Source: Ostrinia nubilalis
Taxonomy: Eukaryota; Arthropoda; Insecta; Lepidoptera; Crambidae
Length of the DNA stretch: 64,000 nucleotides
Assembly (NCBI RefSeq): GCF_963855985.1
Contig: NC_087091.1
Location: forward strand, 18,482,154-18,546,153
Direction: 5' to 3'
Shown here piece after piece: positions 6,210 through 63,390 of this stretch (position 1 is its first letter; the number at the start of each line of letters is the position of its first letter). The position numbers and the translations under genes were made by a program. Below the pieces are notes generated by a model. The model made no database searches and was not told the origin of the DNA. It was given only the letters and a program-made list of their open reading frames with translations.

Positions 6210-6241
6210 AATTAACATTCGCTGCAATTATTTCAAGAAAA

Positions 6242-7372: not shown

Positions 7373-7374
7373 AG

Positions 7375-10300: not shown

Positions 10301-10545
10301 CTCACAATTATAATAAGAAGATATTCGACCAGCGTAGAGAAGACTATAAATTGGAAGAGGGAGATAGAGTCTACGTAGAGAACGGAAATCGATTGAATAG
10401 GAAGAAGATGGATGAATTGAGAATTGGTCCATACAAAATTTTGAAGAAGATATCAAATACAATCTATGAAGTAGATACCGGCCACCAGAAATCGGAATCA
10501 AATTTCTATCACATTACAAAACTATACCCAATGCATAATGAATGA
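7375..10545 (+). CDS. pol: gypsy Pol (protease, RT, RNase H, integrase), about 1,056 aa
   Basis: Numbered from the GTG at 7375; real translation probably enters by frameshifting. The aspartic protease has D-S-G at 22-24. The reverse transcriptase has F-I-D-D at 394-397. RNase H has Y-T-D-A-S with D543. An HHCC-like zinc finger (H-D-S-Y-C-H and C-D-E-C-E-I-C) precedes the integrase core with D798, D856 and E892. The last two acidic residues are separated by 35 residues, as expected for DD35E. This domain order is Ty3/gypsy. No stop or frameshift interrupts it, and it ends 29 bp before the polypurine tract. Confidence 0.92.
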   Translation: MPPLIKVKLLLNDTLNVSGIYDSGSNVSLINAKLLNIQPRKDKKDIQIVNLKTINGEKKTKGMVKLKIKIYNIERIMDIFVIDNDNFNYDFLIGLDCIKNFKLMQDEELNIIQGNNRKQRDVTCIEEDLSNKDYQHNVCLNSQNVKIPDVLGDKNEENFGLQTEVLKPENSYINKCEINFNEHIDAERFEIFVNHLDLYQQSEIDRLIEKYKQVFAKDKYDIGTVRDYEAHIDLMVDKYCCKRPYRCTAEDRTEIEGQIAKLLKNNLIEESYSPFAAPVTLAYKKEDGRRTRLCIDFRELNKIVVPQSQPFPLIEDLMIKTVNCEYFSTFDINSAFWSIPLKKQDKYKTAFVTQEGHYQWTCLPFGLKTAPAIFQRILGNIIRKHELSGFAVNFIDDILIFSKTFEDHIQHISRLLEAILKEGFRLKFSKCTFAKTYAKYLGHIVENNSVRPLKDYLSAVKDFPVPKTRKNVRQFLGKVNFHHKFIPRSAIILDPLHNLLRKDVKFIWTAECQKSFDKIKEMLCSKPVLNIFDPELPINIYTDASIEGVGAVLKQKDKNGDMKPVAYFSKKLTESQKRKKAIYLECLAIKEALKYWQHWLMGKEFIVYSDHKPLENMNIKARTDEELGDLMYYLSQYDFKIKYNPGKSNQEADCLSRHPVLEPFENTDDCLKIVNLINLQDIKDDQHRNQELQKGEVIKEKGIYYKKTRKWKKIILSEELSKNLIRDVHDSYCHIDRTQMINKITKFYTAKNIIITNIKRICDECEICIKNKSRRKPKYGLMSHLGPATRPFEIVSIDTIGGFGGSRSTKKYLHLLVDHYTRYAYISTSKSQSSGDFIKLMKKVTQSYNIHMVLTDQYPGINSKEFKEFLKKENIKLIFTAVDTPFSNGLNERLNQTLVNKIRCKINEGEKIAWSTIAQKCVDKYNETEHTVTRFAPKYLLEGDNVNILPMELKSKCTKEDLERDRKIALENTIKSHNYNKKIFDQRREDYKLEEGDRVYVENGNRLNRKKMDELRIGPYKILKKISNTIYEVDTGHQKSESNFYHITKLYPMHNE

Positions 10546-37881: not shown

Positions 37882-38064
37882 CTAGCTGTCGCGGGGCGCG
37901 GGCGGGTCGCGCGGGGCGGGGGCGGGGGCGGGCGGGGGCGGGGCGAGGCGCGCGAGCGAGTAGCTCTCGGGCTGGAAGGTGGGCGGGCACTGCAGGTGCG
38001 GGTACACGCCCCACGCGCCCGCGCCGGCCCGCGCCGCCGGCTCCGCGCGGCTCGTCGGCGGCGA
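37882..38064 (-). CDS. cnk: CNK exon o, last coding exon
   Basis: Acceptor ACCGTTCCCCAG; 60 codons, then TAG at 37884-37882. Contains W-G-V-Y-P-H-L-Q-C-P-P-T-F-Q-P-E-S-Y-S, then a Pro/Ala-rich C-terminus. Confidence 0.8.
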   Translation of the reverse strand, partial: SPPTSRAEPAARAGAGAWGVYPHLQCPPTFQPESYSLARLAPPPPAPAPAPRDPPAPRDS

Positions 38065-41000
38065 CTGGGGAACGGTACCGGTTCGATGTCGAATTCGTCG
38101 TCTCCGTTTCGAGCTCGTCCGGGTGACGCGTTTGACGTTCGGAACGTTTTCCGGCGTTCGTTCGCGTGATCTTCGGCACGGATCGAAACGAATCTAAAGT
38201 CTTGATCACACGTACCGAGCAAACGGGCGAGACAGTGCTCTCGGCCGAGTACTCGGTGTGTATGAACATTACGCCGAGTACTCGGCCGAGCGCTCAAGTA
38301 TGTGACTCGCTCACCCAACTGTCTCGACCAACATTTTACTGTCTCGCCCGTTTACTCGATACGTGTGATCAAGGCTTTAGCGTCGTAAGAAACGTGCGCG
38401 GAATCGCGCTACGGACCGTCGCGACGGTCTGTGGGAAATGATACACGAAGAGATCTCCGGGACCGATTGGCGCCGGGCGCTTTGCCCCGTCACCGGGGAA
38501 CCCTAAAATAATAAGACACGGGTCTTAACGCGACGTCTGCTTATGACCACGACTGCAGCATCGCAGCCACACATAATGTAACTCGTTAATAAACGTCGCG
38601 TTAAGACCCGTGTCTTACTATTTTAGTTGAAATGGAACGCGAACGTTTAAAACCGGGGAACCCTGTCAAAGCGATCGTCCCGTTTCGGGCGAAGCCCGAT
38701 GGGCCGAGTCGAACGCGTCACCTAGACGAGCGAGTGCGGCGGTGGCTCACCTGACGCGCGTGTCGGAGCACCAGACGCAGACGCGAACCCTCCGCGCCGC
38801 CGCCGCCGCTGCCGCTGCCGCTCCAACTGTAATATCATATTCGTCACGTTTCATTTTGATGCCGCAAATTAATTAAGATTATGATACCGGTTATCAAAAA
38901 ATACCTTAAAACTTATGAAAAGTGACTATAGTAACATTCGTCAACTAAAACAAAAAAAAAGGAGTATTGTGGATCACCTGTCGGCCGGCAGCGGCGAGGC
39001 GTGCACGAGCGGCGCGGCGCCGGCCCGCCGCGGAGCCGAGTGCACCTGCGCAAGGAAAGCGGCATGAGGCAGCGGCCAGTAAACCTAGGATACGCGCCAC
39101 GATATACTTTAACAAAGGCATTTCATCGATTTAACGTAACATGATAAGCCCATACACTCTCTTGTAGTCATCTTAAATCATCGATAAGTTTTGATCGAGG
39201 CGCGCATCCCCACCCAAGAAAAAATAAATACTCGTAATGGCATAGTCTAAAGCCCGGTCTGTGAGCACGTAGAATTTTGTCCAATGACCCCAAGCTACCC
39301 ATCCTTATCGCACGCGCGTAATTATTTTACTATCGCGACTGTGCGACGGGCGCCCGCAGTGAGTGTGCGAGCGCGACAGCAACATAATCACGCGCGAGCG
39401 ATAGGGATGGGTAGCTTGGGGTCATTGGACGGGATTCTACGTGCTCACGGACCAGGCTTTAGTTGAAAGTGGCGCGGCCCCACGCGGGTACCTTGTCGTT
39501 GCGGCGCAGCGAGTCGCGCCAGCGCTCGGGCGGCGCGGGCTCGTCGATGCTCTCGTAGCCCAGCGCCGCCGCTTCCGACGGGTACACCAGCTTCTCGTAC
39601 CTGCGGGAACTCATGACTCAGGGAACAGCACGTTGCGAACGGACGGCATGTGACCAGAAAACAACGCGACCATGAACGTCAAGATGACGGGATCACTCCG
39701 TGCAATGAGCTACCGCATTAGCGCCCCCAGTCGCCGCACGGTGATCAATAATGAGATATTAGGTGGATAATATTCAAATTTGACATTGTGAGGGTAGTCA
39801 AAACAAATCATTGCGATGTGATTGGGGGTACTTACCTCATATTATTGTTTAATATGAACAGTTGAAGGTAAGTCATTACTGAGATATCAGCTAGTGAAAT
39901 CAGTGTTTTCGCTAATTGTACTGATTTGTTCAATTTACTTCCCGTTTTCGCGCACAGTTATCTGTTTGTTGTGACTTATACAGTGCATTATTACGTATTA
40001 ATAAATATGGTGTACATTAATGAAGGTATGTACTTCATTTTCTATAACACTTCGTAACTGTTAATTGTTATAGTAATTTAGAAAAAATATTCAAAACTTA
40101 GCTTAAAATTTAGCCTATTTTATTTTATTTTAAAGCCCGTATCTTACAAGGAACATATTAGAACATGGACATTTTTGTACTGGTAGATAGCTGGAGGTCT
40201 CTATTATGGTATTCAATAAAAAAATTTACCCCAAACTACCCCTGCCTGAACAAACTTTTCATTTTTGCAGGAAACGGTAGTACAGTAAAAAATTCAGATT
40301 TATTTAATTACCTCAAAAAACACCCTCCAATTAAACCTACAACGAAGCAATCCAAAGATATGTTATTGAACTATGTCTATGAGGTCATTGGAGTATCAGA
40401 TGTGACAATACAAGAGCGAAATGAGTTACGAAATTCAATACATAGCTTTTGTTTGTCAGCTTCTAGAAATTGGATTAAAATCGGCAAAGATGTTTCCAAA
40501 TTTGAAAAAAAATACGAGAATTGGTTGTGTAAATGCATAATAACATCTGGAGATAATATTGAACAGCCTTCAACTTCAGGGTCTGTAGGTAGAGGACGCC
40601 CGAAAAAGGCTTTCATGGATTTGGGTGACAGAACTAAGCGTAGAAGATTAAAAGACGAAGTATCATCCAGAAGTGAAGAAGAGTTGTGCTTAGCAGCCGA
40701 GATGAAACTTCATTCAGTCGGAAAACGTAGGGCTGCTTCAGCACTTCATAACATTTCATCATCTCCTGAATGTACTGTGAAGTCACGAGGCAGTCTACAG
40801 AATGATATTTCATATTCGGAAAAAGAAGCACTAGCACTTTTTACCCAATTGAAGTTAACTCGTCTTCAATATATTGAACTAAGGGCATCAGCTATACGAA
40901 AAAATTTGCCGAATTTGTATCCACCGTACTATAAACTTTTAGAAGAGAAGGCTAAGTGTTATCCACAGAACATACAAATTACAGACATATCGGCAGAAGT

Positions 41001-44000
41001 TCCACTACAAAATTTATTAGACCATACAGTGTCACGTATCGCTGAAAACCAAAAAGAAGTGCTTTTATCTCTTAGCAATCATAGTGACTTAAACCTGGAA
41101 ATTATCTATAAATGGGGCGCGGATGGCAGTGGTAGTCAAAAAAATTATAAGCAGAAGTTTGAAAAAGAGGACTCGGATGATTCGAACGTTTTTATTACTT
41201 CGTTAGTTCCTCTACGCTTACACTACACACAGGAAAACAATGATGTAATCATTTGGCAAAATCCACGTACCAATTCCACAAGGTTTTGTAGGCCAATTAA
41301 GTTGCAATTCGCGAAAGAGACACCAGAAGTAATTAATTCTGAGTTTGCTAATATGGATAGACAAATTGCTGATTTAACACCTACTAAGATAGAATTGTGT
41401 GATCGTACTTTTATTGTCAAACATAATTTGCTGAAAACTATGATTGATGGAAAGATCTGCAATGCTTTATCATCAAATAAGTCAACACAGAGGTGCTACA
41501 TTTGTAAAGCTACTACGTCTGAATTTAATAAAATTCTAGATTTAGAACCAAGATCTTACGATCCTCAAACACTGGACTTTGGTATATCACCATTACACGC
41601 ATCTATTCGATTTTTCGAGTGCCTTTTGCACATATCTTACAAACTGCCTGTGAAGTCGTGGCAAGTTCGGGGTGCTGAAAATAAGCAAATTGTTGCCAAC
41701 AGAAAGAAAAATATACAGAAACAATTTAGGGAGAAACTTGGTTTGCTGGTTGATGTACCGAAACAGGGCTTCGGCAACACCAATGACGGCAACACTGCCA
41801 GGAGGTTTTTTGCCAATCCTGACATTGCACACGAGATCACAGGCATTGATCGTGACTTGATTATAAGATTTGGAATTATTCTGAAAAGTTTAAGCTGTCC
41901 CTATAAAATAAATAGTGCTCTGTTTAATGAATACGCAAGAGATACGGCAAAGCTATATGTTAGTTTGTACGGATGGTACTGCATGCCTCCCACAGTCCAT
42001 AAAGTTTTAATTCATGGCAAAGATATTATTGATCATTTCTTGTTGCCTATTGGACAATTAGGGGAAGACGCACAGGAATGTCGTCATAAAGATGTAAAAT
42101 ATTATAGAGAACACAATACCCGAAAAATGTCACGTAAGCAGACTAATGAAGATTTATTCAAAATTTTATTGGTGTCGTCTGATCCTCAGATATCAATTTT
42201 GCGCCCTTTACCCCAAAAGCAGAAAGGTATTTTTCCTGCAGAAGTCATCAAATTATTAGAACAACCTTATTTTGACACAAACGAGGAAGAATTATAATGT
42301 TCAGTACATATTTTTTTGTTTTTTAGATTATAGTCTCAAATACACAATATTAATAAAGAAATAATTATTTACATATTGATATTTTCAATAACATTATTAG
42401 ATAATTGTAATTTCAGATTAAAATATTTTTGTCATCCTAAATTCTGATTATTGATCACTGTGCGCCGTTATCGAAAGTCGTTTCATCGAATGTCATAACA
42501 TCGAAGCCGTTACATCGAACGGTCATTCGTCATTCGTCTCACTCACACACGACTAACGCGCCGCAAAGTATGCTTCAATATGCGTTTTGACAAAGAACTC
42601 ATTTCCACTCCACCTTGAGGTAGAATGAGTGGCGCGTTTTTTTATCGTGGTGTCCCCTGGAGGCCTATTCCACATCATCATCATAAGTATTAATTTTGTT
42701 CTTCTTCTTCTGATTCTCTTCTACTTCGGCTTCTTCTCTTCTACTCCTCGTCTTGTTCTCATCTTTATCTTCTTCTGAGCTTCATCTTTTTCCGAGCTCC
42801 TTCTTCTCATCTTCTTTTTCTCTTCCTCTTACGAAGAAAAAGAGGAGAAAAAAGAAGTGACGAAAATGAGAAGAAGAAGACGATGTCACGATTAATCTAA
42901 TGCAACAACATTTGATGTTTTGACCATTCGATGTTTCGACCATTCGATGTTTCGTACAATCGATATAATGACCGTTCGATTTAGGACTTCGATGTTATAA
43001 CATTCAATGAAACGATTTTCGATAAAACGTACGGAACCCCAACTGGTGAGCGCTGAAGCGACAGGACTATCGCATTCGAAAGCACCAGGTTGGCACCACG
43101 CTCGTGAAAGGACAGTCGTATAAGTATCAGTGGCGCCAACTGGCGAAGGCAAATATAGACCCTCATTGATTTAGGAAAACTTAAGCTTTAGCCCTCTTTA
43201 GCCTAGGTGCAGACCAATGACTTTTAGTCGGCCGATAGTTGGGCCCGATTCTAATTTGTATAAAGAATTGGCCGATACCAAATCGGTGTAATGGCGTGTC
43301 CACACATGCCGCTGGCTTTCAAAATGCCTTGCCAGTGTGCCGTCCTGGCCGCCGGGTCGGCCGCCGGGTTGGCTGCCGGCCATGCCGCCCGGCATGTGTG
43401 GATGCGCCATAATGTGCGCACTTTCATACATGTCCATACTGATCAACAGCCCGACCCAACTATAGGCCAACTAAAAATCGGTGGTCTGCACCTAGGCTGC
43501 AAGATATTTTTTTCTGAATGAAACCAGTAGTAACCCACAAAGTAAATAAACCTGACCTAAAGATATCCAGTAGTTATAGATTTATCTTATTTGATTATAT
43601 TGAATGTAACGTACCCGTCTTTCCCTTTGACAGAGATCGGCTTGACGGCGTCGCGCGGCTGCCTGGTGGCCTCGGCGCCGCCACCCGCCGGCGCGCGCGG
43701 CAGGCTGCGGCCCTGCGGAACAAACACCGATCAAATGCCGACAGATTCATGAATTGCAAAAATAAATATCTACCTATTTCAATTATTTTTTATTTCATTT
43801 CTTTTAATGTTTAAAATCCCACCAAAAACATTTTCATGTCAAAAGTTACCAAGACGAACCGCACGCACTGTAAAAAGTTATATCTAGAGTCGCATGTAGT
43901 TTGGCACTTCCATGTTTAGATTAACGCCCGTTGCCCATAATAATTCAATCCCTGTCCAAATCCGGATTACAACTGTCAAATTGAATTCAGTTTTAGATTA

Positions 44001-47000
44001 AAATATTTAAAATATTCGATGCATTTACACTTTAATATTCTTTAAATAGTCTAAAAAAACAATATGAAAATGTAAAAACATTAAAAACCACAGATATTTT
44101 GACCAAAAACATAATGAAATTTGACAGTTGGTTGACGGACGGATTTGGATTAGGATTGAATATACATAGATAAAATCATAAATCTTCTCACCACCTGAAC
44201 GGTGTCACTGTTGGGAACAAAACTCAGGGAGACGCTATTGATATTGTATTGCCCACACGCAGTAGATATGTGGTAAAGTCAGCGTCAAGTAGTTCGTGAC
44301 ACCCAAAGTAACCAATAAGTTCGCAACACGTCTGTTTTGGAATTGGAATTGTCAACTTTTTGGCCACATTGAGTGTCAAGAACTATTTGACACTAAGGCC
44401 CAGAACACACGGTGAAACGCAACTTTGAAACTGGTCAAACTGGTCGCGTCATGTGTGGTCTCTCAATGGAATCTATGGCAGAAACTTAGATACAACTCAA
44501 AAGTAACTAGAAGTTGCAGTTTCGTTGCAGTTGCGTTTCACCGCGTGTTCTGGGCCTAACTGTACAGTGAAAAACTTCGGCCCGGTTTCCACCAAAGCGG
44601 AACTGTGCGGAGACGTAAGTATTTATTATATTTGCAGTGTAAGTATTATTTAAATAGACTATACAAAATAAAGATATTTTGTCTGAGAGGAGAAATTGGA
44701 AGGCTATTTCCACCAAAGCGGAGCGGAGAAGAGCAGAGCGGTTCGGAGACAAGAGGTGTGTGAGCTGTGCATAGCTGTCAGCCTATTGTTATCCATGAAA
44801 CACCGCATCGCTCCGCCCTTCTCCGCTTTCCTCCGCATCACACCGCGCCGCCGCACTGTCAATTCTACAGAAAAACAATTGCGCGCGACAATTCTCCGCT
44901 CGATCCATTTCCACCAAAGCAGAGCAGAATGGAGAGGTGCAAATAATGGAATCTAATTGATTATTCTTACAAATCTTTTATGCTTCGCTCCACACCGCTC
45001 CGCCTTGGTGGAAATCGGGCCTTACAGTGGCGGACCGAATCGATAATATTTTATTTATTGCATGTATTTTTCATCTTTGGTTAAATAGTGTCTTAAATCC
45101 TCTTGAGGTTTGTCCAGGGACTATTGTTCTCTATGCAAATAAAATAAACGTTTTAGTATAAGCATCCACAACTAAATATAAGCAAACAAAACATTATTTT
45201 AGCGAGAATGCACTACATACGTATAATATTCAGCACGCGTAGATATATCGCCATCTATAGTTTAATGTATGAACTAGCTCGTCTCGAGGTATAAGAAGTT
45301 CGAAGACGAAGCATAAGAGTCATAGATGGCGCCTTACAAATAGTTACTGAGTATTTGAACAGATGGCGCTAAAGTCTGTTCGCCGAGAGTTGATAAATAT
45401 TATGAAATGTCTTGCAATAGCGACTGTCGCTTAATTATCGCATTCTGTATGGCGGGCGTCGTTTGTCACAACGCGCACTGAGTACCATGGTACGAGCCAC
45501 GCAGCTGTCGTCAAGCGCCCCGGCCGGCGGGCCGCAATGTGTGAAACGCAATGTGTGAAACGGAATAGATTTATTTTACATAAGACCGAAATGAATGGTA
45601 TGACAGTGGGTAGGGTAGGGTTGCCCAGCATTGGGATACACTATAAGCCACTTGATAATAATGAAATACTTTTTATCCAACACATGGACGCCACGTGTTT
45701 GATACGTATCCCCACGTATGCCCTAACCGGAATAATTCCCGTAAATTTAAAAGAGATAATAATGAAAATCTACCAACTTTTTCATTATATCGACAAAAAT
45801 AATTAGCGGGCCGCAATTTATAATGAGTTTAGAACCTCTGATATTTTTTTTTATCAACTCTCGGCGAACAGACTTTAAATAGTATATTGCGTACCTGCAT
45901 GTGCGCGCAGGCGCGCAGCTCGCCGTAGATGACGTCGGGCACGATGCGGTCCAGCCGCAGCTGCAGGTCGGCCGGCCGGTCGCGCTCCACGCCCAGCAGC
46001 ACGCGGTTCGTGTACACCTGCGGACGTGCACATTTCATCGTATTATGTTTGGGCCTTGAGATAAATAACAGGGGTCGAAAATACCCGATATTTATTATTT
46101 ATTATTTTATTTATATCAAAATATCGGATATAAGGTCTATTCAAACCTAAGCGATATTCGCTGCCGCTGTGGGTAGAGGTACATACCGCGCGGGTTTCGC
46201 TCAGGTATTTAGTATCAGTATCGCGGCTAGAGCGACCTGAGCGATATTCGCTGCCGCTGTGGGTAGAGGTACATACCACGCGGGTTTCGCTCAGGTATTT
46301 AGTATCAAGTACCGCGGCTAGAGCGGTTTTCTCTGCCGCAGACGGTAGCGAATACCGCTTAAGTCTGAATAGGCCTTTTATCAACTTTGATATACAGGGT
46401 GTCCCATAAAGAGCGTATCAAACTTAAGGAGATGATAGACTAATAGACGATGTTTATCTATACAACAAAAAAAAACTAATAAAAGCATCATCATTTCAAT
46501 GGAATTTTGTAATGCTACCTGGAGGGAAACTACTCTTAATACTGTAGATAGCAAATTTTACTCAAAGAAAAAATTAATTTATTTTTGAAAAGAAATAGAA
46601 CTGCATTCAAAGATTTTCCAAATATTATCGACGCAGGGATAGTACAAAAAAGTTTTAACAATAAAAGTTGCTATAATACCTAGATTAATTTCAAAAAGTA
46701 TATGTATATCTATCAAATATCAAAAATATCATTTTGGCATTCAACGCCAGTTCAGAACAGTAGTAATTGTAATTCCAAAGCGACGCACCTGCTTCCGCTC
46801 CTCGGCCTGCTTGTTCAGCATGAACTCCTCGAGCGTGACCAGCCCCATCGGGCTCGGCTCGGGCTTGGCGCGCGGCCGCGGGACCCGCAGCGTCGGCTTC
46901 GTGACGAAGTCGCTCTTCTCGAAGTCCAGGAGGTTCGGGTTGGACGCGTGGATGTAGTTGATGGGCTTGGGGATCTTGGCGGCGGCCGGGGCCCCTGCGG

Positions 47001-50000
47001 CGGGCGGGGCCCCGGCGGCGGGCCCCACAGCAGGCGGGGCCCCGGCGGCCAGCGAGCGCCCCGCCGCCTCCACGCGCCGGTAGCTGCGGTAGTGCTCGGT
47101 CGGGACGGGCACACCGGAATGCTTGCTCTGGGGGTCGATCGAAGAAAAGTAGTTTTGATCACATTCAATAACAGTACTAAAGCCTGGTCCGTGAGCACGT
47201 AGAATCCCGTCCAATGACCCCAAGCTACCCATCCTTATCACTGTAATTATATTGCTGTCGCGACTGTGCGACTGGCACTCGGAGTGAGTGTGCGAGCGCG
47301 ATAGCAACATAATTACGCGCGAGCGATAAGGATGGGTAGCTTGGGGTCATTGGACAAAATTCTACGTGCTCGCAGACTGGGCTTTAGCCGAATGAACGAT
47401 TTCGTCGACCCTAAAATAAAGTAGGTTTTAAAAATATTTCGTCACAATGTTTTCAGTCAACCAAAGCGTGCGACTCGCCGCGGCGAGTGCGGCTCACCTT
47501 GCCGTTCTTACTGTCGTCCTTGCTCTTGTTGCGCGAGAAGAAGCGCAGGTACTTCCTGTCCAGGCTGGTGGAGGCGTGGCCGACGCTCTCGTGCGAGTCG
47601 CTGCGGCGGCCGGCCAGCTTGCGCAGCGAGCCGAACTTGGACTTGTCCTTGTCCTCGCGCCGCTCGCGCTCGCGCCGCTCCGGCCCGTCCGTGTCCGACT
47701 CCGTGTCCGAGTAGTCCGTCTCGGAGAACTGCTTCGATATGTCGCTCTGAAAATCAGGGTTCGAAATTATCAAGATAATTACGCTCCATGATAATTATCA
47801 GATAATTATCGGATAATTATCAACAGTATAAGATACATTTGTCATATCGTTTTAAGGGAAATGTTACTTTGTTTTTTGTAACTGAATGTTGTCAAGTTCT
47901 ACCGTTTGTCGCATAACGCTTGGAAAATAGATAAATAAATATTTTGACGCTAGTTAAATAGTGATCATTCTCGAGCTAAATAATTAAGTTTTATAACTAT
48001 CTATGTTGATTAGCGCCCACCACTAGACGCAAGTGCGGAAATACACGTTCGAAAACTTCGAATACAGTTCACTTTCACAAGTGCATTTTTTGTTATTATC
48101 AACTGATAATTATCCATCTGTTATTATCAAGATAATTATCATGATAATTATCGTGATAATTATCATTGATAATTATCCTTTCGAACGCTGCTGAAAATTC
48201 AAGCAAACGTTCGGTCAGTCCTCCGCCGGACGCGGACGGGCACGCACCTGCGGCGGGCCGGAGTTGAGCGTGGCGCGGTGGATGAGGTGGATCCAGGCCA
48301 GCATGCTGTCGCGGCTGTCGCAGGCGAAGTAGAAGGCGGTGCCGGTGTGGTACACCTTGAAGGCGTGCTCGCGCGACTTCACCTCGCCCGCCGCGCACAC
48401 CGTGAAGCCCTCCAGGTGGATCATGCAGTCCGCCTTATTGCACTGCCGACAGGAGCAGAATTTGAAACGATTACGCTCGATTCTATCGACAACTAAAGTT
48501 CAAAATTCGTCGTATTTAATACTTTTCAAATCGTATAATAACAGTACCTCAATCGCTCCAGCAAAACTGTTAAATAGTTTCCAGCAGCCAGCGAGACTCT
48601 TTTATATTGTGATGGCCGCTAACGCTTATCAGTGTGTTTTTAAAAAAAACTAAAGCCCGGTCTGGGAGCACGTAGAATTTTGTCCAATGACCCCAAGCTA
48701 CCCATCCTTATCGCTCGCGCGTAATTATAATGCTGTCTGTCGCGACTGTGCGACGGGTGCCCGCAGTGAGTGTGCGAGCGCGACAGCAACATAATTACGC
48801 GCGAGCGATAAGGATGGGTAGCTTGGGGTCATTGGACAAAATTCTACGTGCTCGCAGACCAGACTATACACCCTCCAGATTTAATCTTGGAAAATAATTT
48901 GGGATTTCGCTGGAGCAATCAAGGCGGGTCCTATTGTTTCGCTCATAAGACAACGAATGTAAAACTTCAGTCGGCGATCGCGTCGAGTCTCAGGAGCCAG
49001 GCTGGTGACTGGTGGCTGGTGGCTGGTGGCTAGTGGCTGGCAGTGTTGCCAACTTAGCTACTTTATAGCTAGATTTAGCAAGTTTCTGATGTCAGGCAGC
49101 TACAATTTTTTTTAACTTGTAGCTAAACTTTTTAGCTACTTTTTCTAGCAACCATTGATTATGATATATTTTTACAAAGTTAAGGTAGCGGCATCCCCGA
49201 CAAACAAAATTAGTATTAGCAATATACGATACGACTCACTTAATCGGTGCGGAATAACTTTGGGGATTCCCTCGTTTGACTGGTTTTGGCCTAATATTGT
49301 CTTCTTTTATTTGTTAATTAAGTAGTCACAGTATTAAAGTTAAGTTGATTACAGTTTATAGCTGAATTATTAACTGCAATGTTTTATTTCTTTAGTATTT
49401 TATTTACTTCGGAATTCAGCTAGGTACTTCTAGCTACTTTTTAGGGAGAAAAAAATACTCAATCTAGCAACTTTCTGTTAAATTCCTAGCTACGAGCCTT
49501 TGGTAGCTGTTGGCAACACTGGTGGCTGGTGGCTGGCGGGCGGTGTACTCACGTCGGGCGCGCGGTAGGCGTAGAGCGCGGCGTGCGCCAGCAGCAGGTG
49601 GCGGCGCGCCCAGCGCGGCGTGGGCGCCCCGCGCGGCCGCACGCGCTGCCACGCCGCGCCGCCCGGGCCCCACGCCGCCAGCGCGCGCGCCGGCACCAGC
49701 CGCCGCTCTGTCCCCTGGTGTAGGTACTCACGTCGGGCGCGCGGTAGGCGTAGAGCGCGGCGTGCGCCAGCAGCAGGTGGCGGCGCGCCCAGCGCGGCGT
49801 GGGCGCCCCGCGCGGCCGCACGCGCTGCCACGCCGCGCCGCCCGGGCCCCACGCCGCCAGCGCGCGCGCCGGCACCAGCCGCCGCTCTGTCCCCTGGTGT
49901 AGGTACTCACGTCGGGCGCGCGGTAGGCGTAGAGCGCGGCGTGCGCCAGCAGCAGGTGGCGGCGCGCCCAGCGCGGCGTGGGCGCCCCGCGCGGCCGCAC

Positions 50001-53000
50001 GCGCTGCCACGCCGCGCCGCCCGGGCCCCACGCCGCCAGCGCGCGCGCCGGCACCAGCCGCCGCTCTGTCCCCTGGTGTAGGTACTCACGTCGGGCGCGC
50101 GGTAGGCGTAGAGCGCGGCGTGCGCCAGCAGCAGGTGGCGGCGCGCCCAGCGCGGCGTGGGCGCCCCGCGCGGCCGCACGCGCTGCCACGCCGCGCCGCC
50201 CGGGCCCCACGCCGCCAGCGCGCGCGCCGGCACCAGCCGCCGCTCTGTCCCCTGGTGTAGGTACTCACGTCGGGCGCGCGGTAGGCGTAGAGCGCGGCGT
50301 GCGCCAGCAGCAGGTGGCGGCGCGCCCAGCGCGGCGTGGGCGCCCCGCGCGGCCGCACGCGCTGCCACGCCGCGCCGCCCGGGCCCCACGCCGCCAGCGC
50401 GCGCGCCGGCACCAGCCGCCGCTCTGTCCCCTGGTGTAGGTACTCACGTCGGGCGCGCGGTAGGCGTAGAGCGCGGCGTGCGCCAGCAGCAGGTGGCGGC
50501 GCGCCCAGCGCGGCGTGGGCGCCCCGCGCGGCCGCACGCGCTGCCACGCCGCGCCGCCCGGGCCCCACGCCGCCAGCGCGCGCGCCGGCACCAGCCGCCG
50601 CTCTGTCCCCTGGTGTAGGTACTCACGTCGGGCGCGCGGTAGGCGTAGAGCGCGGCGTGCGCCAGCAGCAGGTGGCGGCGCGCCCAGCGCGGCGTGGGCG
50701 CCCCGCGCGGCCGCACGCGCTGCCACGCCGCGCCGCCCGGGCCCCACGCCGCCAGCGCGCGCGCCGGCACCAGCCGCCGCTCTGGGGACGAAAAGCGACA
50801 GTGGAGTTGCGATCGTTCCGATAGAAACGTTGCGCGTGTCGAATCTGAATGCGAGCGTGCTGAATGTCTGAAACGCTCCCGATTCGTCCTGCCCCCCTAG
50901 ACAAAACGCACTTTTTGATCGAATCGATATTCGAATCCGTCAAAATTCCATACAAAAAAGGGGCTTTTCGACCACTTTTCGACTGATTTGCGATTATAAT
51001 TTGCACTTTGTCTAGAACCACTGAACTACGTGCGGTGACGTTTCGACGCCCGCTCCTTTTGACTGACCGAATACCGAGGTTCCAGACGCGATACGACAGT
51101 GACTGTGTTGCGACCCGATGAGTGCTGAGGCACGCGAAAGGTTGATTCGAAGAAAGCTTTGATTGAGACTTAAGCTACCCGCATCCGGTCGACACTCTCG
51201 CAACGGTGCCTTATACTGAAGTTTAAAAAAGATGTAAAATATATGTGATACTATTTTTAAACTTACATTTATGTAGGGCCGGGGGTTCTCCAAAGAAACT
51301 CAACTTTCAAATTCGTAAAAATTACCGTATTTGTCCAAAATTATTAAATAATAGCGGAGCACATTCGCACGTCATAGCAGTTGGGACGAGAGAGAGCGAG
51401 CCCCGCACCTTTCATTCATTCCTTTCATTCGGTTTATTTTACCGTTTCACTATTTGAACGTTTCAACAAAATTTTAAAAAAGTTTGTTTTCTTTTACATT
51501 CCTACATTTATACCACGCTGAATGAAGAATGTTCACTAATTTTATTTTTTAGCTTTCTGTATTCTCTGTTAAAAATAAAAAATACACGTGAAAGAATTAT
51601 TTCGATACGTCAATTCCAAGATATTTAATTTTAAAGGTGCGGGCGGCGGCCGGCCCGCCATTTTATACGCGTGACGTCATAATATAGTGACTGGCTGAAA
51701 TTTGAATGGGTGGAATCTTGCAAGCTGAATTAAGACCCACTTCCGGACAACCGATGAAGCTGAAATTTCGCATACACATGTAATTTGGATGACCATGCAA
51801 TATTATGATGACATGGAGCTGATCTGATGATGGAGCTGGAAGGTGGCCATAGGAACTCCATAATAAAACGACTTAACTCCATCTAGTTTGGGCTCGTTCG
51901 TTTTGTATTGACGAGTACTTCAATTCTATATAGCAATCAGGGTCTGATGATGGAGCTGGAAGGTACATCGCAATAAAATGACACAATCGCATCAAGTTTG
52001 GGTTTGGTTCAATTTTAATTTCTGTGATGGGTCTGGGTGTTAATAATATGTATAATATGTATGTATTTACAAAAAAAAATGTATTTAAGTATGTTTATAT
52101 CCGTTGTCTAGTGAGCGGACACTGTGAATGTACGTCACGCAGGGTCACGTGACCATCGGCGGGACTCGATATTTAAGCGAACTTTGAATGCCTATAAAAT
52201 CATAACTGCTTGGTATTTTTGAATGAAATAAAAACAAATGTATTTGTATATGTAAAAGATTAACTGTAACAAAGGTTTCAAGCGATTTTACATACCTAGT
52301 AACATTCTTAATTGCAGTACAACGACACAAGCGCGCGCGGCGTGACGTACGCATCACGCCACTCTCGGTGACGTCAAGACCGTCAGTTATTCCCGCTCGC
52401 TCAATGTTAAACTCGTGACAATGTCGGTAGTTACTTCTTAAAACAATATCATAATGTAAAAGCAAACCTCAATTTAACACAAACAAAACACAGATTCACA
52501 GATTTTTATTTTATTTTAAATTCCTTTTCTTCTTTAATATTCTTTGTGAAAACACTATATCCGGGTTCAGGTAGTCATTAAGATAGCGTGAATGGAGCAC
52601 AATTTCTGTTTGTTGGTGTTGGGGTCACATTTTGTTTGGCACGCCTAGAACACACACGGACGGAATATACCTATTTATTGTACAAAAAGGTTAAATAAGA
52701 TTTTTTTTCATCGGTTTTGGACTCTATACATGATACTGAGCTACCAGTTTAAAGGATGAACACTAACACCATGTAAGTATGACTAGCGCATAACTGATTC
52801 AGTGCCTGAGGTGTGGGAGCGGCACGAGTGTTTTTGACACGTCAGAGTAAATACAAATGAGTAGGTCATCTTTACAGAAACGCACCGGGTTTGTATGTGA
52901 GCGCGACAAAATTTAGCGGGGATTAGCGGGGAGCCAGTCGTGGTTGCGCCGAAATTTGTCTGTGTGTGCGTGCGCGCCGCAAACGTATATTGGCGCGCTC

Positions 53001-56000
53001 TGCGTCAATGTCAGACTCCCGTGCCGCTTCCATACTTTAGCGACTGACCGAGTTACGCTTCAACCACACCGACGCGTGCAGATCGCCCTCGCCGGCGCGA
53101 TCATAGGCCAATGACAGGTCCAGTCCAGGAACAATGAAACAGGGGCTACCGTGTCGGTTCAGTCGTTCAGTCGCCCAGTGACCTAACGCTCAAGACGGTT
53201 AAGCTTGTAAAATAATGTTGAGTAATGACAACACTAAACATTTATTTATGGTTTAGAGTTTAAAAAGCTAGCTCAAAGTCGATGGTCACGCTCTGTAGAA
53301 AAATGGCCGACTGAAAAGTTTTGTTTTGATGTGCTCCGTTGTAATTTATATTTTGCATGTGTAAGATTGCAATAAACAAGCAAGTTGAAATAAATAATCA
53401 TGGCGCTTTATTAATTAAACCCCATAACAAAAATAGTTATGGGCCCAGAAGAATTTGTCACAAGAAATTAAGTTCAATCGCATCCACGAGTGGAGGACAT
53501 TGTTGGAAAGGTTTATGGTACCGAAAATTACATCTACGAATATCATCGTCATCATGTCGTGTTCGAAAGACAACAGATATAACATTGCACAATTCAATGG
53601 GGAAGGATTTTCGAATTGGGCTTTTAGAATGAAAAGTATGCTAAATGAGGCAAATTGCCTGGGCGCTGTGATTGACGAAAATTTCTCCAAGAAAGCCGAA
53701 AATAAGAGCCTCGAAGCAAGGGCACAGGCTCTAATAATTAGCGCAGTGGCTGATAGTCATCTTCAATATGTACGCCAAGAAAGTGCATTTAAAATGTACA
53801 AAAACTTAGAGGAAAACTTCAAAGAAAAAAGTACAAGAGGAAAATTGTTTTTGAGAAGACAGCTGAACGAAATAAAGTATCTAGAGAGCAAACCACTGAA
53901 AGAACATTTTACCAAAATTCAAGAAATCTGCACTCAGTTGGAGGAGGCAGAATCAGTTTTGTCAGACGAGGAAAAAATTAACTACATACTTTTATCTATG
54001 CCAAAAAGCTACGAGGGCGTAGTCACCGCATTAGAGACAATGGGAGACCTGAAACTGAGCACAGTCATGGAAAGACTTCTCGCAGAGGAAGAAAAGAAGA
54101 AAAAGTTTAATGAAAACAACAAAGAGACGAGCTCGAGTGCCTTCAATTGTTACAACTGTGGGAAGCCAGGCCATAAGAAATACCAGTGCAGAGGTCGAGG
54201 ACAAGGAAACAATTATTCTACAGGGCGAAATTATACTACTGGATCGGGACAAACATATAGAGGAGGAAATAACAATTCAGGAAGAGGATTCTACAATACA
54301 GGACGAGGATACTATACTGGACAAGGATACAATACAGGACGAGGACAAGGATACAACAATACAGGACGAGGACAAGGATGGAGCCATGGCCGAGGGAGAA
54401 ACTACCAGAGTCAAGAACGGAGAGAGGAGAGTAATTATACGGAAAATAATCCTAGTGCATTTGTGAGTGAAAATAATCAGTGTGAAGAAAGTGTGCAAAA
54501 ATATAAGTGTGCAGAAAAGTATTGCGAACTACAATTTTGTGTGGACTCAGGGTGTTCAGATCATTTAGTTAACACAAGAGAACATTTTGTGGACTATATA
54601 CAATTAACAAAACCACGTCTCATTGCTGCTGCCAAAAATGGTATTAATTTACAAGCAATAGGAATTGGCAACATAGAGGTAATTAGTAAGGTAGGCAACA
54701 GGCAATATAAATGCATAATTAAAAATGTTTACTATGTCCCTGACTTAAGAAAAAATTTATTGTCTGTATCAAAAATGGAAAATGCTGGTTTGACTGTCAG
54801 TTTTTCTCAAGGTAAAGTAAGAGTTTTTGAAAAAGATTACATACTAATGATTGGTAATAATTCTGGAACTTTGTACACAGTGAATGTTTTAGTAACTTCA
54901 GTAAAATCTTGTTATTTAATTAATAAACCTGATGTAAATCTTTATGAATTGTGGCACCGACGTTTTGGTCATTTGGGTTCAAGTAATTTAAATTTATTGG
55001 CGAAAAATTGCATGGTAAAAGGTTTATCGGACTTAAAAAATAAAACGACACAGAGTGATTTATGTGAATCTTGTTTATTGGGTAAAAGTACTAGACAGCC
55101 ATTCAATCATAAAGGCTATAGAGCCAAGAAACCTTTAGAGTTAGTTCATACTGATGTATGTGGTCCAATTTCACCAACCACTTGGGATGACAAAAATTAT
55201 TTTGTCACTTTTATTGATGACTTTACACATTTCACTATGGTATTTTTGATAAAACATAAATCTGAAGTTTTCAAAAAGTTTTTATATTATTATAACATGG
55301 TAACTAAACATTTTAATAGTAACATTTTAAAATTGAGAATGGATAATGGGCGCGAATACTTGTCTAATGAGTTTAGGGATTTTTGTAACAGAAATGGAAT
55401 AGTCATGCAGCATACAGTACCTTATAATCCGGAGATGAATGGTGTGGCGGAGAGAATGAACAGAACCCTCATGGATAAAGCGAGAACAATATTGATAGAT
55501 GCAGGAATGAAAAAAGAATTTTGGGGAGAAGCAGTATTATATTCTACGTACGTTACAAACAGGAGTCCAGTTGCAGGAAGAGATACTACACCTAGTGAAT
55601 TATGGGAAGGAAGAAAACCTGATGTTTCGAATTTGAGAGTATTTGGATCCATTGCTTACAATCACGTTCCTAAAGAATTGAGGAAGAAATTGGATGACAA
55701 AGGCAAGAAAATGATAATGATTGGATATAATGTAGGAGGATACAAATTATTTGATGAAGAAAATAACATGGCAGTGACGGCAAGAAATGTGATATTTGAT
55801 GAAAACCTAAAGAAACCGGAAAAGACAATTTTTATCCCTGACTATACAGAGTGTGAAAATGAAGAACAGAAACCAGACAGAACAGGAGGAGAAACTAGTA
55901 TAGAGAATGAAGAAGAAAAGAACCAAACTTCTGAAAACAATGAAAATGAGCAAGAAAGTGAAGAACTGGAAAAGGAAGAACAAGAAAGACAAAAAAGGAA

Positions 56001-59000
56001 AAGACAGAAACCATTATGGCAGAAGGACTATGTTGCGGATTTTGACGAAGAAAGTGATGAAGCTCTATTTGCATTATTAAGCAGTCAACATGAAGATACA
56101 CCGGTAAGATATGAGGACATTGAAGAGAGAGAGGACAAAAATGATTGGTTAAAAGCTGTAAAAGAGGAACTTATAGTTTTAGAAGAAACGGAGACATTTG
56201 AAATCGTACCAGAACCGAAAGATAAGAAGATATTAGATGGAAAATGGGTATTTACAAAGAAAGAGACAGAAAGAGGTAAATTATGTAAAGCTAGATTAGT
56301 CATTAGAGGTTTCCAACAGGAAGAGAAATTTGAAGACATCTATTCACCGGTATTGAAACTACAAACGTTAAGGACATTGTTATCAGTAGCTGCTAAGAGG
56401 GATTATACTATACACCAAATGGACGTGAAAGGAGCCTTTTTGTATGGGAGGATTGACGAAGATGTATACCTAAAACCACCAAAAGGAATGAATGTTAAAG
56501 AAAATTGTGTACTCAAACTCAAGAGATCGTTATATGGACTGAAGAAATCACCTAAATATTGGTATGAAAAATTCAATGAGACTATTACTTCTTATGGTTT
56601 TAAACGCTCGGATAATGACTATTGTTTATATATTAAAGGGGAAACATACTTACTTTTATACGTAGACGATCTATTAATTCTTGGACAAAATATTAAAGAT
56701 ATCAATTCAGTAAAAGACTTTTTGAAAGCTCAATTTAAAATGAAAGATTTAGGGGATAATAATTTAACTTACTTGGGTATTTCTATAAGAAAGAGTTCTG
56801 AAGGAATTTTTATTGATCAGTCAAAGTATCTTAAAAGAATTTTAAAACTGTTTAATATGTCAGATTGTAAAGGCTGTAACACACCTATGGATCATAACTT
56901 TAAATTTGATGAAAACTTGGAAATTGACTTGTCTTATGAAAAACAATGTAGATCTCTCATAGGTTCTCTCATGTATGCAACTGTAGGATCAAGACCAGAT
57001 TTAGCTACATCTGTCTATTATTTAAGTAGATTTCAATCAAAACCTAATGCCGAACTTTGGCGTGCTTTAAAGAGATTATTGAGATATGTTAAAAAGACAA
57101 TTAACTTTGTATTACTTTATACTAAAAATGACTTAAGTGAACCACTTGTTGGATATGCAGATGCTGATTTTGCTAGAGATAATGATCGAAAGTCAACATC
57201 TGGATATTTATTTAAAGTTTATAACAATACTGTTGTATGGAAATCTAAAAAGCAAAGTAGTGTTGCACTTAGTACAACTGAAGCTGAGTATGTTAGTTTG
57301 TGTGAATCTGTAATGGAAGCTTGTTTCATGATTAAATTACTAAATGACCTAAATATAGATGTTCCAACTGTAACTATTTTTGAAGACAACCAGAGTACAA
57401 TTAAATCGTTGAAAGGTTGTGATATAAAGCGATTAAAGCATATTGATGTAAAATTTAATTTTGTTAAACAAAAGGTTGAAGAAAATTTGATAAATATTGT
57501 TTATGTTAATTCTAAAAATCAGTTAGCTGATATCTTAACTAAGCCTTTAAGTAAAAATGTATTCTATAGTTTAATTGAAGGTTTGGGACTGTATGAATAT
57601 GTAAATAAATGTTTATGTTGAGGAAGAGTGTTGAGTAATGACAACACTAAACATTTATTTATGGTTTAGAGTTTAAAAAGCTAGCTCAAAGTCGATGGTC
57701 ACGCTCTGTAGAAAAATGGCCGACTGAAAAGTTTTGTTTTGATGTGCTCCGTTGTAATTTATATTTTGCATGTGTAAGATTGCAATAAACAAGCAAGTTG
57801 AAATAAATAATCATGGCGCTTTATTAATTAAACCCCATAACAACAATAAATAATATTATATTATTACCTACGATAACTGAAATTCCATAATAAACATTTA
57901 TAAATAAATAAATAAATAAATTTATCGTACGCCGTTCTTCGTTCCTCCTAAAACTATCAAGGTAAACATAACCACTACTCTCCCACCACCACGGTGGCGA
58001 ACACTGTTTAAAATTAAAAAGCATAATTGATAATAAAAAAAACGTACTCGCAAGGATAGAATTCTTTTTCTTCAAGCTCCTCGACTTGGAGGTGGGGAAT
58101 ATGCTTTTGACGGCGGCGGCCGACGGCGACAGCGTCAGGCCGCGCGGCTCGCCCTCCGAGCCGCTGTCCTTGCGCCCGCCCGGCCTGCCGTCGGGCCGCT
58201 CGGGCCTGCCGTCGGGCCGCTCGGGCCTGCCGTCGGGCCGCTCCGGCCTGCCGTCCGCCGCCGGCGCCTCCGCCTCCGCGTTGATGGGCGGCAGCTCCCG
58301 GCGCTCGCTCGGGATCACCTTGATGTCGTGCTTCGTTATGTGACGGAGCGGCAGGGATATCTGCGGATCGGAACGACATTAAAAGCGTTTCAAACGAACA
58401 CTGTTTTTCTTCGACCGCACACAAATTCTACGAGCGACGGCGATTGAGGCGGGTCGTTACATTCCCTATAATATGGTCGAGTGAAGCGATGGCTGGTTCA
58501 CACGTCATGTCTGTGAACAGGCGCTGCCTTAGGGGACTGGTCAAGGAAAGATATACCTGACATAAAATATATATGTATCAAAACGCAACAATTAACCTAG
58601 AAATTAGCACGGCACTAAAGAAATATATTCAAAACTGCCACGCGGTCTCGTGCTAGATGGGAGTCTTAAAGGCCACCTTCTATCAACGGGAGCGCGTGGT
58701 AAGTAAGTAACCTGTTTCTGAATGTATTGTAACTTCCTACTTTTTTATATTTTTAAACCGGCAGACAGAGACTGAGTTCGTTGCGGCGCTTCTTCTCAGC
58801 ACTTGCCAAATGTTTGTCTCGAAGCGCTGGTAGGGCAAAAAAAGAATGAGACATGTATAGGCTCCTTAAGAGCATTTGACGATTTGCAAGTACTAATTTA
58901 ATTAGTCTAAGGGGTCATCCATAAAGTACGTCACACGTAAAGAGGGGGGGGGAGGGGGTTGACAAAGTGTGACATGGTGTGACAAGGGGGTGGGAGGGGT

Positions 59001-62000
59001 CCTAAGTTTCGTGACATCACATTTCAATTGTTTCAAATATTTGATATAATATTGATTTCATAAAAAAAGTACTTAATTTAAATGGAAATAAAACTAATTT
59101 CGGAACTGCTGTTAATTTAATAATTTTTCGATGTGAAATTGCAAAACATGTGACGTCACACTAGGGGGGGGGGGGTTTCAGAAATGTGACCACCTGTGAC
59201 AAGGACGGAGGGGGGGTAAAAAAATCATGAAATTCGTGTGACGTACTTTATGGATGGCCCCTAAACAAATAAAGATAATTTTGATTTTGACGAGATGCGG
59301 GTTCGATTCCCGGCGGGCCGTTCTATCGTACCTGGCCGGCGTGCAGCTTGGCGGGGCGGTGCGGCGCGGGCGGCGCGGCGGGCTCGCGCGCCACGGCCCG
59401 CAGCACGGGGTAGGCCGGGCCGCCCGCCGGCCGCGCAGGCGGCGACGGCGCGCGCTCCAGCCGCGCCCGTCTGAAACGAACGCGCTCGTGATACTTTTAG
59501 CAGGCCTGTTCATCTCCACGAGTTCACATCGAAAACAAAACACGCACGATGGCCCGCCTCCAGGATACTATGAATCGACAAGGCCTCACATACGAGCGAA
59601 CATTGACTCGCGCACGCGTATTCTTGTGTATGATGGAATAAAATAAAGAAAATGGTGTACTAAATACTGTGCAGTATTTAACTGCCTAAATAATAATAAA
59701 AACACAGAATGTACTTTTTTAAGTTGCCTCAAGACACTGAGAGGTAAATAAGTAGTTAATAATATTCATGATAATTCATGCTAAATCATGTGTTTCCTCC
59801 GCCATTTTCCGCAGTTTGGCACCTCACGTCACATCATTTTACCGAAGTCGATCACTGACGTTTGTCAACAAAATGGTGCTTGACTCTTGAGACAGGCTAA
59901 ATTACACCATATTGTTAATGACATGGAGCATACATTTTTTTAAATACCGCCGCGAAGTAAAACTTCTGTACGTAGTACTTATTATTATTCTGTGGTTTTA
60001 GGCCCTTTTCACAAGGTGGCGAAGTGTATGGGCATGCCGGATTAATTACGCCGGTACATGTGAAAGCTACGTACCATGCCCATACACTTCACCACCGGGT
60101 ACCCGGCGCCGGTTAGCCGGCAACCGGGACGTGTGAAAAGGGCCTTAGCGTTGACACGAGCGACCGGTCGCTCCCGCTTCCGCGATCGCAGGGGGGCCGC
60201 GGCACAAAATATAACTGAAGGTAAACTCATGTATGTACCTCGCTTCGCATACCTGCGCTCGGCCGTCGCGCTAGGGTTGTCTTGTCACGTGTTGCGTTTA
60301 TTTCGTTATGATAGAAAAATGAAACTTTTAATACTATGGAAGAAAAACAATAACAGATATCCACATTATCCAAGTATAATTATGTAGTTATGTTTAGTAC
60401 GTTATTATTATAGTAATAGTTTGCAAACAAATACACGAGAAGGAAGTAGTATGACGTAGTACCTATGTAGTTGGGTAGTTGACACTATTATCCAATAATT
60501 CCTAAAACCTCTTTAAAACACTTCGATATTCCTAATAATTGAGTTGGTTATCAATTTGTCAACGTTAAACGAACTATTGAAATACAAATAAATACCTTAC
60601 TTACCTCCCGAAATCAATTGGTAGTTTAAAAAACGAAAATTTAGTTTTTAATGTTGAGTACTTAACAAACATTTGTTAAGTAGATGGTTGCATTTGTATA
60701 ACATTATAATACCCCTTTTTTGTTGTTCACTCATTTTCGCACAAAAAAATAATTTCACAAACGCGTGAGCAGCGTCATTCAAGCGAACGCAGTCGCGCCT
60801 CGCATTCGTCCGAGACAGTCTCGATAACGCGTACGTGAGCGGTGTCTATGTGTGTGTGGCTCGAGCGCGCTTAGAACCGCTGAAAACCAGCGTCGGGGCA
60901 CGCGTGCATGCACGCGTGGCTCGATTAATGCTGAGCGGGCGCCTTTTTGGCACAAAAATATGCGTGTATAGTTTTAAGTCCCTTTGTTCTGTTTTTTATT
61001 TTTTTCCTTTTTTGTGTCAAATAAAGTTTTTCTTATTCTTATTCTTATTCTTAGTATGGAGTTTACCTTCTGTTATATTTTGTGGCCGCGGGGAGCGCGA
61101 GTCTCACCTGGGAGGCGCCCGGCGCTCGTCGCCGCTGGACGGCGGGCTGGGCGCGGCGGGCGCGGTCGGCGCAAGCAGCGAGCGTCGGCGGTGCTCGGGC
61201 GCATCGTGCTCGGGCTCGTCGGCGGCGCGGCGGCTGCGCTGCTGGAGGATCGCCTCCCCGATTTGGGAGCTCGACTTCTTGAAGTCCAATATTTGATCCG
61301 CTTTCTCGGCGGAGTGGACGAATATCGTCGGACTGGAATCGTAAAGCACGCAACGGATGAACGTAAAGCCCTTTTCACACGTCCCGGTTGCCGGCTAACC
61401 GGCGCCGGGTATCCGGTGGTGAAGTGTATGGGCATGGTACGTAGCTTTCACATGTTCCGGCGTAATTAATCCGGCATGCCCATAGACTTCACCACCGGGT
61501 ACCCGGCGCCGGTTAGCCGGCAACCGGGACGTGTGTGTGCCGGTATGCACAATACTTAATCTCTTCATATCTTATCTTGATCACGTTCACAGTGTCAGCA
61601 CATTTATCACGTATAGTGCTGATGCTGTGACGTCATTTACCTTTGATCTATATCGTATAAATAGTCGCGCAGTTCACATAATAAACAGACAAACTGTGTC
61701 TTATTCATACGGTCTTTCAACATGGCACAAATTGGTGACCCCGACGAAGAAGATGATCCCGACGAAGTTGGCACAGTGTGAAAAGGGCCTTACGGAGTCA
61801 TTTTCGACGGTTGTCCGTTTCGGACGTACAAAAAGACATCAATCTGAGTTATAAAAGCGTTGAATATGAATCAGAACCTGTCGCCGGGCGTGGCGGGGGT
61901 GGCGGGGGTGGCGGGGGTGGCGGGGGTGGCGGGGGCGGCGGGCGGCGGCGACTCGGGGATGGGCGCGGCGGGCGGCGCGGGCGCGGCGTCGTCGCAGTCG

Positions 62001-63390
62001 TACGCGGGCGTGGAGTGGCTCTTGTCCAGGCGGCCGCGCGAAGCGCCGCCGGCCGCTGCGGAACCGGAACGAAATTAAAGGCCTATTCAAACCCGAGCGA
62101 TATTCGCTGCCGCTGTGGGTAGAGGTACATACCGCGCGGGTTTCGCTCAGATATTTAGTATCAAGTATCGCGGCTAGAGCGACCTGAGCGATATTCGCTG
62201 CCGCTGTGGGTAGAGGGTACATACCGCGCGGGTTTCGCTCAGGTATTTAGTATGATGTACCGCGGCTAGAGCGTTTTCTCTGCCGCAGACGGTAGCGAAT
62301 ACCGCTTAGGTCTGAACAGTATTATTACCGCATACCCACTGGGTTTTCTCTGCCGCAAACGGTAGCGAATACCGCTTAGGTCTGAATAGGCCTTAAAACT
62401 TTGAAAACGAGACCGTTCCCGGTTCTCGACGTCGGAGCGGCGGGCGACAGAGGAAGATGACGCGGTGACGTTGGAACCGGAGCGATTCGAATGACATTTC
62501 TGTCGATATATGAGGTCGTTACACGCCTATAGTCCGGTCGCATAATTACGCGCAAGCGATAAGGATGGGTATCTTGGGGTCATTGGACGAAATTCTACTT
62601 GCTCGGGCTCAGCGACCGGGCTTTAGAAGAATCATGATTCTTCCATGCCACACTGATCTAAGTTTTTGGTGCTGACGCAACATATTACTATTAAATGTGG
62701 TGACATTATGATCCACCGATCACTCCGGTTCTAACTTCGTCTTACATGAGAAGATTTGTGCACACTGACCTCGAAGACGAACGGGCCTGAGACGCATCAA
62801 ACATGCCTAATTCTGTGTTCTAAGTTTCACGAGTCCACCTTCGGTGTCAGCGTGAAGTGCGTCGGACGGTCAGCGTCGAACGGTTCGTGACGCCCGAAGC
62901 GGCCGACGAGTCGACGACTCAACGTCATTCCCGTCGGAACGGCCGCGTTGCGAACTTTTTGCCTACTTCGGGTGTCACGAACCGTTCGACGCTGACTATA
63001 CGTGAAACAATAATACTAAGCTAAAATAAGTTATACAATAAAATAACAATCTGCGCTCGTAATTATGTTGCTGTCGCGCTCGCACACTCACTGCGGGCGC
63101 CCGTCGCACAGTCGCGACAGCAATATAATTACGCGCGAGCGATAAGGATGGGTAGCTTGGGGTCATTGGACAAAATGCTACGAGCTCACGGACCAGGCTT
63201 TATAATGTACTAGCTTTCCGCCCGCGGCTTCGCCCGCGTGGAATTTTGTCTGTCACAGAAAAACTTTATCGCGCGCGTCCCTGTTTCAAAAACCGGGATA
63301 AAAACTATCCTATGTTCTTTCCCGGGACTCAAACTATCTCTATGCCAAATTTCATCAAAATCGGTTGCGAGGTTTAAGCGGGAAAGCGTA

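Follow-up and report, generated by a model that had tools for sequence, protein, structure and literature searches.

The repeated unit

How can a coding exon stand seven times in succession inside its own gene and still leave that gene intact? The question is raised by a 64,000-nucleotide (nt) stretch of the Ostrinia nubilalis genome (contig NC_087091.1, positions 18,482,154 to 18,546,153), called the window here. On its minus strand, at 49545-50784, one exon of a gene with supported identity as CNK (connector enhancer of KSR) is repeated head-to-tail. Among the predicted exons, labeled a to k, the repeated one is exon f. We consider it probable that the array is a lineage-specific expansion of this guanine- and cytosine (GC)-rich exon, similar to a variable number tandem repeat (VNTR), and that it is tolerated through the use of copy 1, the first to be transcribed.

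The array is composed of six exon-containing units of 179 bp and a seventh of 166 bp, with every base identical. Tandem Repeats Finder (TRF) returned a period of 179, 6.9 copies, 100% matches, 0% indels and a score of 2480, which rules out a chance repeat. Seven head-to-tail units at 100% identity and without indels are what is expected of a VNTR or minisatellite. Each full unit contains three nucleotides of acceptor (CAG), the 155-nt exon, eight nucleotides of donor (GTGAGTAC) and a 13-bp filler, which sum to 179. All of the gaps between copies are 24 nt long and read GTGAGTAC-CTACACCAGGGGA-CAG, and thus run from GT to AG with the filler inside. A script comparison found the exon copies (7/7), and likewise the six internal gaps, to be identical. 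At the edges of the array, the sequence changes immediately before the CAG of copy 1 and immediately after the GTGAGTAC of copy 7. These results bear out an earlier note on this DNA, which had described seven identical 179-bp tandem units with edges coinciding with the exon and its splice signals. Apart from the array, no site in the window has at least 16 bases in common with the unit, and 14-base sharing occurs at two places. The GC content of exon f is 86%.

The host gene

The assignment of the host gene to CNK, with exon f encoding the first part of a PH domain, is supported by orthologues, by Pfam and by splice sites and frame, in line with the identity and exon limits given in the earlier note. 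The best of 35 database proteins, O. furnacalis LOC114354809, aligned with 67% of the query at 96% identity. Another match, from Operophtera, carries the name connector enhancer of ksr. When the O. furnacalis model (P0001) was mapped to the window, eight of its nine exon matches showed 91.7-100% identity, while the ninth (81.8%) crosses an exon boundary; the two differ at a few residues and in one repeat. The joined peptide of exons f and g matched the Pfam PH domain with E=2.9e-08 and exon g alone with 6.6e-07, while exon f alone gave no match. The closest PDB match by sequence was IPCEF1 (5mr1, E=7.9e-07).

Across exons a-k, PH was the only domain found by Pfam. A Zerene cesonia relative (P0005) lists PF00536, PF07647 and PF10534, which we take to be SAM, SAM and CRIC. 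The SAM, CRIC and PDZ domains of CNK, upstream of PH, are expected to lie beyond window position 64000. In the same Zerene protein, residues 257-345 match the antisense of exon e (window 58062-58331, plus strand), as if the segment had been inverted in the assembly or mis-modelled.

Read with a single copy of exon f, the eleven predicted exons join into one open frame, as judged by splice sites and frame; exons a-d are open and in frame with exon e. In these tests, exons a-d and d-k were chained separately, and d-k was run with exon g nine bases short. The Bombyx protein P0002 places the start of exon g at 48442, nine bases earlier than our first setting based on splice sites, which leaves the frame unchanged. 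The features are listed in Table 1.

Table 1. Position in the window and basis of assignment of the array, the predicted CNK exons and a neighboring element
Feature	Position	Strand	Basis
Whole array, seven copies, 179-bp period	49545-50784	-	TRF and script
Exon f copy 1, first transcribed, pyrimidine-rich acceptor, predicted used copy	50627-50781	-	splice sites, frame
Gap between copies 1 and 2, 24 nt; five more identical gaps at 179-bp steps	50603-50626	-	script
Exon f copy 2	50448-50602	-	script
Exon f copy 3	50269-50423	-	script
Exon f copy 4	50090-50244	-	script
Exon f copy 5	49911-50065	-	script
Exon f copy 6	49732-49886	-	script
Exon f copy 7, donor followed by differing intron sequence after GTGAGTAC	49553-49707	-	script
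Exon a	63481-63610	-	prediction from splice sites and reading frame alone; no homologue found
Exon b	61878-62055	-	prediction from splice sites and reading frame alone; no homologue found
Exon c	61108-61332	-	prediction from splice sites and reading frame alone; no homologue found
Exon d	59332-59470	-	prediction from splice sites and reading frame alone; no homologue found
Exon e, ends in phase 1 (...SLKKKNSILA+A), in-frame join to copy 1	58048-58360	-	splice sites, frame, tblastn
Exon g, remainder of PH domain	48248-48442	-	start from Bombyx protein P0002
Exon h	47498-47746	-	splice sites and frame, tblastn
Exon i	46789-47127	-	splice sites and frame, tblastn
Exon j	45895-46017	-	splice sites and frame, tblastn
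Exon k	43615-43712	-	splice sites and frame, tblastn
Further CNK exons, approximate boundaries	37915-39599	-	tblastn of O. furnacalis P0001
MITE-like (miniature inverted-repeat transposable element) insert, 481 bp, in GGCTGGT repeat, 23 bp from array; 13-bp terminal inverted repeats CAGTGTTGCCAAC, 8-bp target duplication GTGGCTGG	49041-49521	.	sequence analysis

Reading frame and copy number

With the corrected exon g, exons e-i are open when one copy of exon f is included, and skipping exon f breaks the frame. If copies are joined exon to exon, messages with 0, 2, 3, 5 or 6 of them stop early, while those with 4 or 7 stay open, because 155 leaves a remainder of 2 when divided by 3. If the gaps are kept, 3-7 copies bring the reading frame to a stop at the copy 2 donor, and with exactly two the stop lies 19 nt inside exon g. 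The TGA that had been predicted at the donor of copy 2 on read-through is thus found for three to seven copies and not for two. Similarly, the proposal that only the donor of copy 1 keeps CNK intact holds insofar as a single copy is needed, but four or seven spliced copies would also be in frame, which would require introns of 24 nt. That additional copies truncate the PH region was borne out for all predicted messages of 2-7 copies with the gaps kept.

Splice sites and expected splicing

Acceptor strength was gauged by the pyrimidine content at positions -23 to -4. The acceptor of copy 1 is 80% pyrimidine, the highest of the exons examined (45-75% in the other ten), whereas those of copies 2 and 7, the later copies scored, are at 40%; the bases before copies 3-6 are the same. 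The donors are alike in all copies of exon f (GTGAGT). Twenty-four nucleotides fall below the insect intron minimum and leave no space for a branch point, and on this general ground tiny introns within the array were judged implausible. They were judged so also against the modal Drosophila intron, given as 60-70 nt in the available part of PMC5762160, in agreement with the earlier view that the gaps are too short to be introns; the available part of PMC6161759, on Arabidopsis, contains nothing on an insect intron minimum.

A cluster of mutually exclusive exons was ruled out by the identity of the copies (7/7) together with the 24-nt gaps. In such a cluster each copy has a functional acceptor and a spliceable intron, and the copies differ so that the choice alters the protein. 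Here the gaps measure 24 nt, the acceptors of copies 2 and 7 are 40% pyrimidine (although exons a and j have 45%), and the copies are the same. Since the copies are identical, with poor later acceptors and 24-nt gaps, no choice among variants is possible.

The introns flanking exon f are 7266 nt long upstream and 2184 nt downstream (1110 nt when counted from copy 7), and a layout of long introns and short exons is said to favor exon definition in Drosophila (PMC5762160, in the part available). We propose that copy 1 is exon-defined, its acceptor being paired with its own donor 155 nt away. Copy 1 would then be spliced to exon g, copies 2-7 would be removed with the downstream intron, and the CNK protein would be normal. 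Some transcripts may take a later donor, retain copies and gaps, stop in the PH region and undergo nonsense-mediated decay.

Exon f in relatives

The Bombyx model P0002 holds exon f once and whole. The contig protein P0036 (86 aa, from a 1705-bp contig of which the protein part was read) also holds it once, with intron-like ends. In seven further proteins and in the mayfly protein P0035, the corresponding start of the PH domain is present once, as judged by eye. No relative read shows more than one copy. Because exon f is single in P0002 and P0036, the array is probably derived, and a single PH-domain exon, with three nucleotides of its acceptor and eight of its donor, would have been amplified to seven in an Ostrinia lineage.

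Exon f is absent, by eye, from eight of the ten named lepidopteran models (P0001, P0004, P0005, P0006, P0008, P0010, P0011 and P0013), and its absence from P0001, P0005 and P0011 was also seen by tblastn. P0003 has only the second part of the exon, which leaves P0002 as the sole named lepidopteran model with the whole of it. Four models (P0001, P0006, P0008 and P0011) start at the first Met after exon f. This pattern suggests that exon f is systematically lost in the assembly or annotation of lepidopteran models, the likely cause being its high GC content (86%), and gene models of this GC-rich exon should be treated with caution.

Origin of the array

The duplicated segment comprises 166 bp, to which the 13-bp filler is added. 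Among the 320 placements of a 166-bp segment that touch the exon, 8 include the exon and both splice dinucleotides (2.5%, calculated post hoc); over all lengths from 50 to 1000 bp, the fraction that holds the exon plus 2-8 nt on each side is 7.6e-05, again a post hoc calculation. The array may have been formed by one end-joining duplication with the 13-bp filler, followed by unequal exchange or replication slippage. As an alternative, the filler could be the original intron, the flank beyond copy 7 having been replaced later. That flank is a GGCTGGT-type repeat, which carries the MITE-like insert of Table 1; from its target size, we take this element to be hAT-like. The perfect identity of the copies bounds the age of the array loosely, to about 8.3e5 generations for a mutation rate of 2.9e-9 per base, so that a very recent origin is not required.

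A rolling-circle origin, in which a microDNA-like extrachromosomal circle with the exon was copied head-to-tail and reinserted at its source, would fit some of these properties. MicroDNAs are described, in the part of PMC5587290 available, as circles of 100-400 bp with high GC content and exon enrichment. The 179-bp unit, with its exon of 86% GC, its exonic source and its perfect identity, fits this description, and the unit is unique within the 64-kb window, the only DNA searched for a unique genic source. However, ordinary slippage or unequal exchange accounts for the same array, and the absence of differences sets nothing tighter than the age bound above. We regard such an origin as very improbable.

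Points against the proposed expansion tolerated through copy 1

Several observations weigh against a lineage-specific expansion tolerated through copy 1, which is drawn from the sequence of this window and from proteins and gene models of relatives. With regard to splicing, the acceptors of exons a and j are only 45% pyrimidine, and a low content alone does not exclude an acceptor. The earlier statement that only the first copy has a pyrimidine-rich acceptor thus stands on the numbers (80% versus 40%) but is less decisive than it seemed. Furthermore, the seven donors are alike and that of copy 7, at 1110 nt, lies nearest to the downstream acceptor, so that use of the copy 1 donor is not assured. 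With regard to formation, the longest match of the filler to the flanks is 6 bp, with 715 of 1000 shuffles as good, and folding of the strand at the exon gave a z of -0.15 against shuffles, which argues against an unusual DNA hairpin. As neither is better than shuffled sequence, there is no direct support for any mechanism of formation. Nor does GC content suffice as an explanation: at 88, 86 and 85%, exons d, a and b carry no such array.

The comparison with relatives is subject to similar caution. The O. furnacalis model starts after exon f, and with eight of ten lepidopteran models lacking the exon, the evidence for a single copy is thin and the failure to find multi-copy relatives is weak evidence. 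One copy in a gene model is, moreover, not proof of one genomic copy. A search for proteins spanning a copy junction found none at E<=0.001 (one reading frame, best 7984 candidates scored). This negative carries little weight, as short-read assemblies would be interrupted at the array. When the junction was searched in the coding frame, one of 1433 candidates was returned, the single-copy P0036.

The missing junction proteins would also be expected if the genome held one copy, or some other number, and the seven identical units had been made in sequencing or assembly. Perfect identity over 1240 bp and an exon of 86% GC point the same way. However, assemblers usually collapse identical repeats rather than expand them. 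In addition, the 13-bp filler has no second occurrence in the window, where at most 8 bp of it are shared, and it would not be produced by simple stuttering of the exon. The O. nubilalis genome ilOstNubi1.1, according to the part of PMC11851004 available, is a hifiasm assembly of HiFi reads with a quality value of 68.8. An array of 1.25 kb is well inside reads of this kind, although ilOstNubi1.1 need not be the assembly of the window. On balance, we consider an artefact, which the earlier note had also allowed for beside an expansion, unlikely.

Comparison with known systems

Exon-containing tandem arrays with near-identical copies are known from the kringle-IV-2 coding VNTR of LPA. Its unit is of kilobase size and includes full introns, and translation runs in frame through all copies, unlike in CNK, where the message is expected to hold one copy only. 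Dscam is the classic case of mutually exclusive tandem exons. Tandem exon duplications with mutually exclusive exons, as treated in the available part of PMC9013439, resemble the CNK array in that one exon lies head-to-tail within a gene, but the CNK copies are identical, the later acceptors are poor and the gaps are 24 nt. With the CNK/CNKSR family, the gene shares the PH domain and exons orthologous among moths; in no relative read is the PH exon repeated.

The nearest precedent found is the VNTR in intron 18 of human ABCA7, whose 25-bp unit starts with a splice donor. According to the available part of PMC5954066, the frame is shifted when one unit is retained, and both exon-19 skipping and expression follow the length of the VNTR. 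Like the ABCA7 VNTR, the CNK array is a tandem array in a gene, with a splice donor in each unit, where retention of a unit leads through a frameshift to a stop. Unlike the 25-bp intronic unit beside an exon in ABCA7, the 179-bp CNK unit spans a whole exon and both of its splice ends, in an insect. No paper in the literature search joined connector enhancer of KSR and Ostrinia, and no whole-exon minisatellite paper matched most of the query. Among the literature matches listed, there was no seven-copy identical array of a whole exon with both splice ends and 24-nt gaps.

This precedent lends some plausibility to a copy-number switch, in which the copy count sets the use of distal donors, and with it the share of stop-bearing, degraded CNK mRNA, and selection keeps or varies the count. 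The seven donors are intact, and every message of 2-7 copies that keeps its gaps would reach a stop within the array or shortly beyond it. However, the relatives read have no array, the long flanking introns favor copy 1, and in ABCA7 unit retention was not affected by VNTR length, nor did the authors see an effect of length on decay (PMC5954066, in the part available). We therefore judge such a switch improbable, and the dosage or off switch suggested in the earlier note, although possible, is unsupported, as no relative read carries an array. Slightly less credible still is a polymorphic donor ladder, in which copy number would set the share of CNK transcripts reaching a distal donor, the stop in the PH domain and decay; if it were true, a coding-exon VNTR would tune the dosage of a Ras/MAPK scaffold in corn-borer moths.

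If the array is real, it would provide a natural experiment in splice-site choice, with seven identical donors, one per 179-nt step, following one good acceptor. Donor usage would show how exon definition ranks identical sites, in the gene of a signalling scaffold. The array would also show that a whole exon can be amplified inside its own gene without breaking that gene.

Other repeats and elements in the window

Short GC-rich tandem repeats were found by TRF in other CNK exons: a 21-bp unit (x3.5) at 58182-58255, a 9-bp unit (x6.4) at 61885-61942 and an 18-bp unit (x2.6) at 46978-47023, the last of which lies in exon i and shows indel differences from O. furnacalis. An element with CCAATGACCCCAAG inverted at its two ends occurs in several CNK introns (39281-39428, 47211-47353 and 48684-48835), and single matches were also seen at 62573 and 63156. 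A unit of 90-92 bp is present in two tandem copies each at 46145-46325 and 62091-62273, both intronic, with within-pair matches of 95% and 93%. No RNA family reached its gathering score in the window. By eye, long open frames resembling retrotransposon polyproteins of Pao/BEL, gypsy and copia type were recognized at 2-4102 (-), 6152-10545 (+) and 53437-57621 (+), the last of which sits in the intron between CNK exons e and f.

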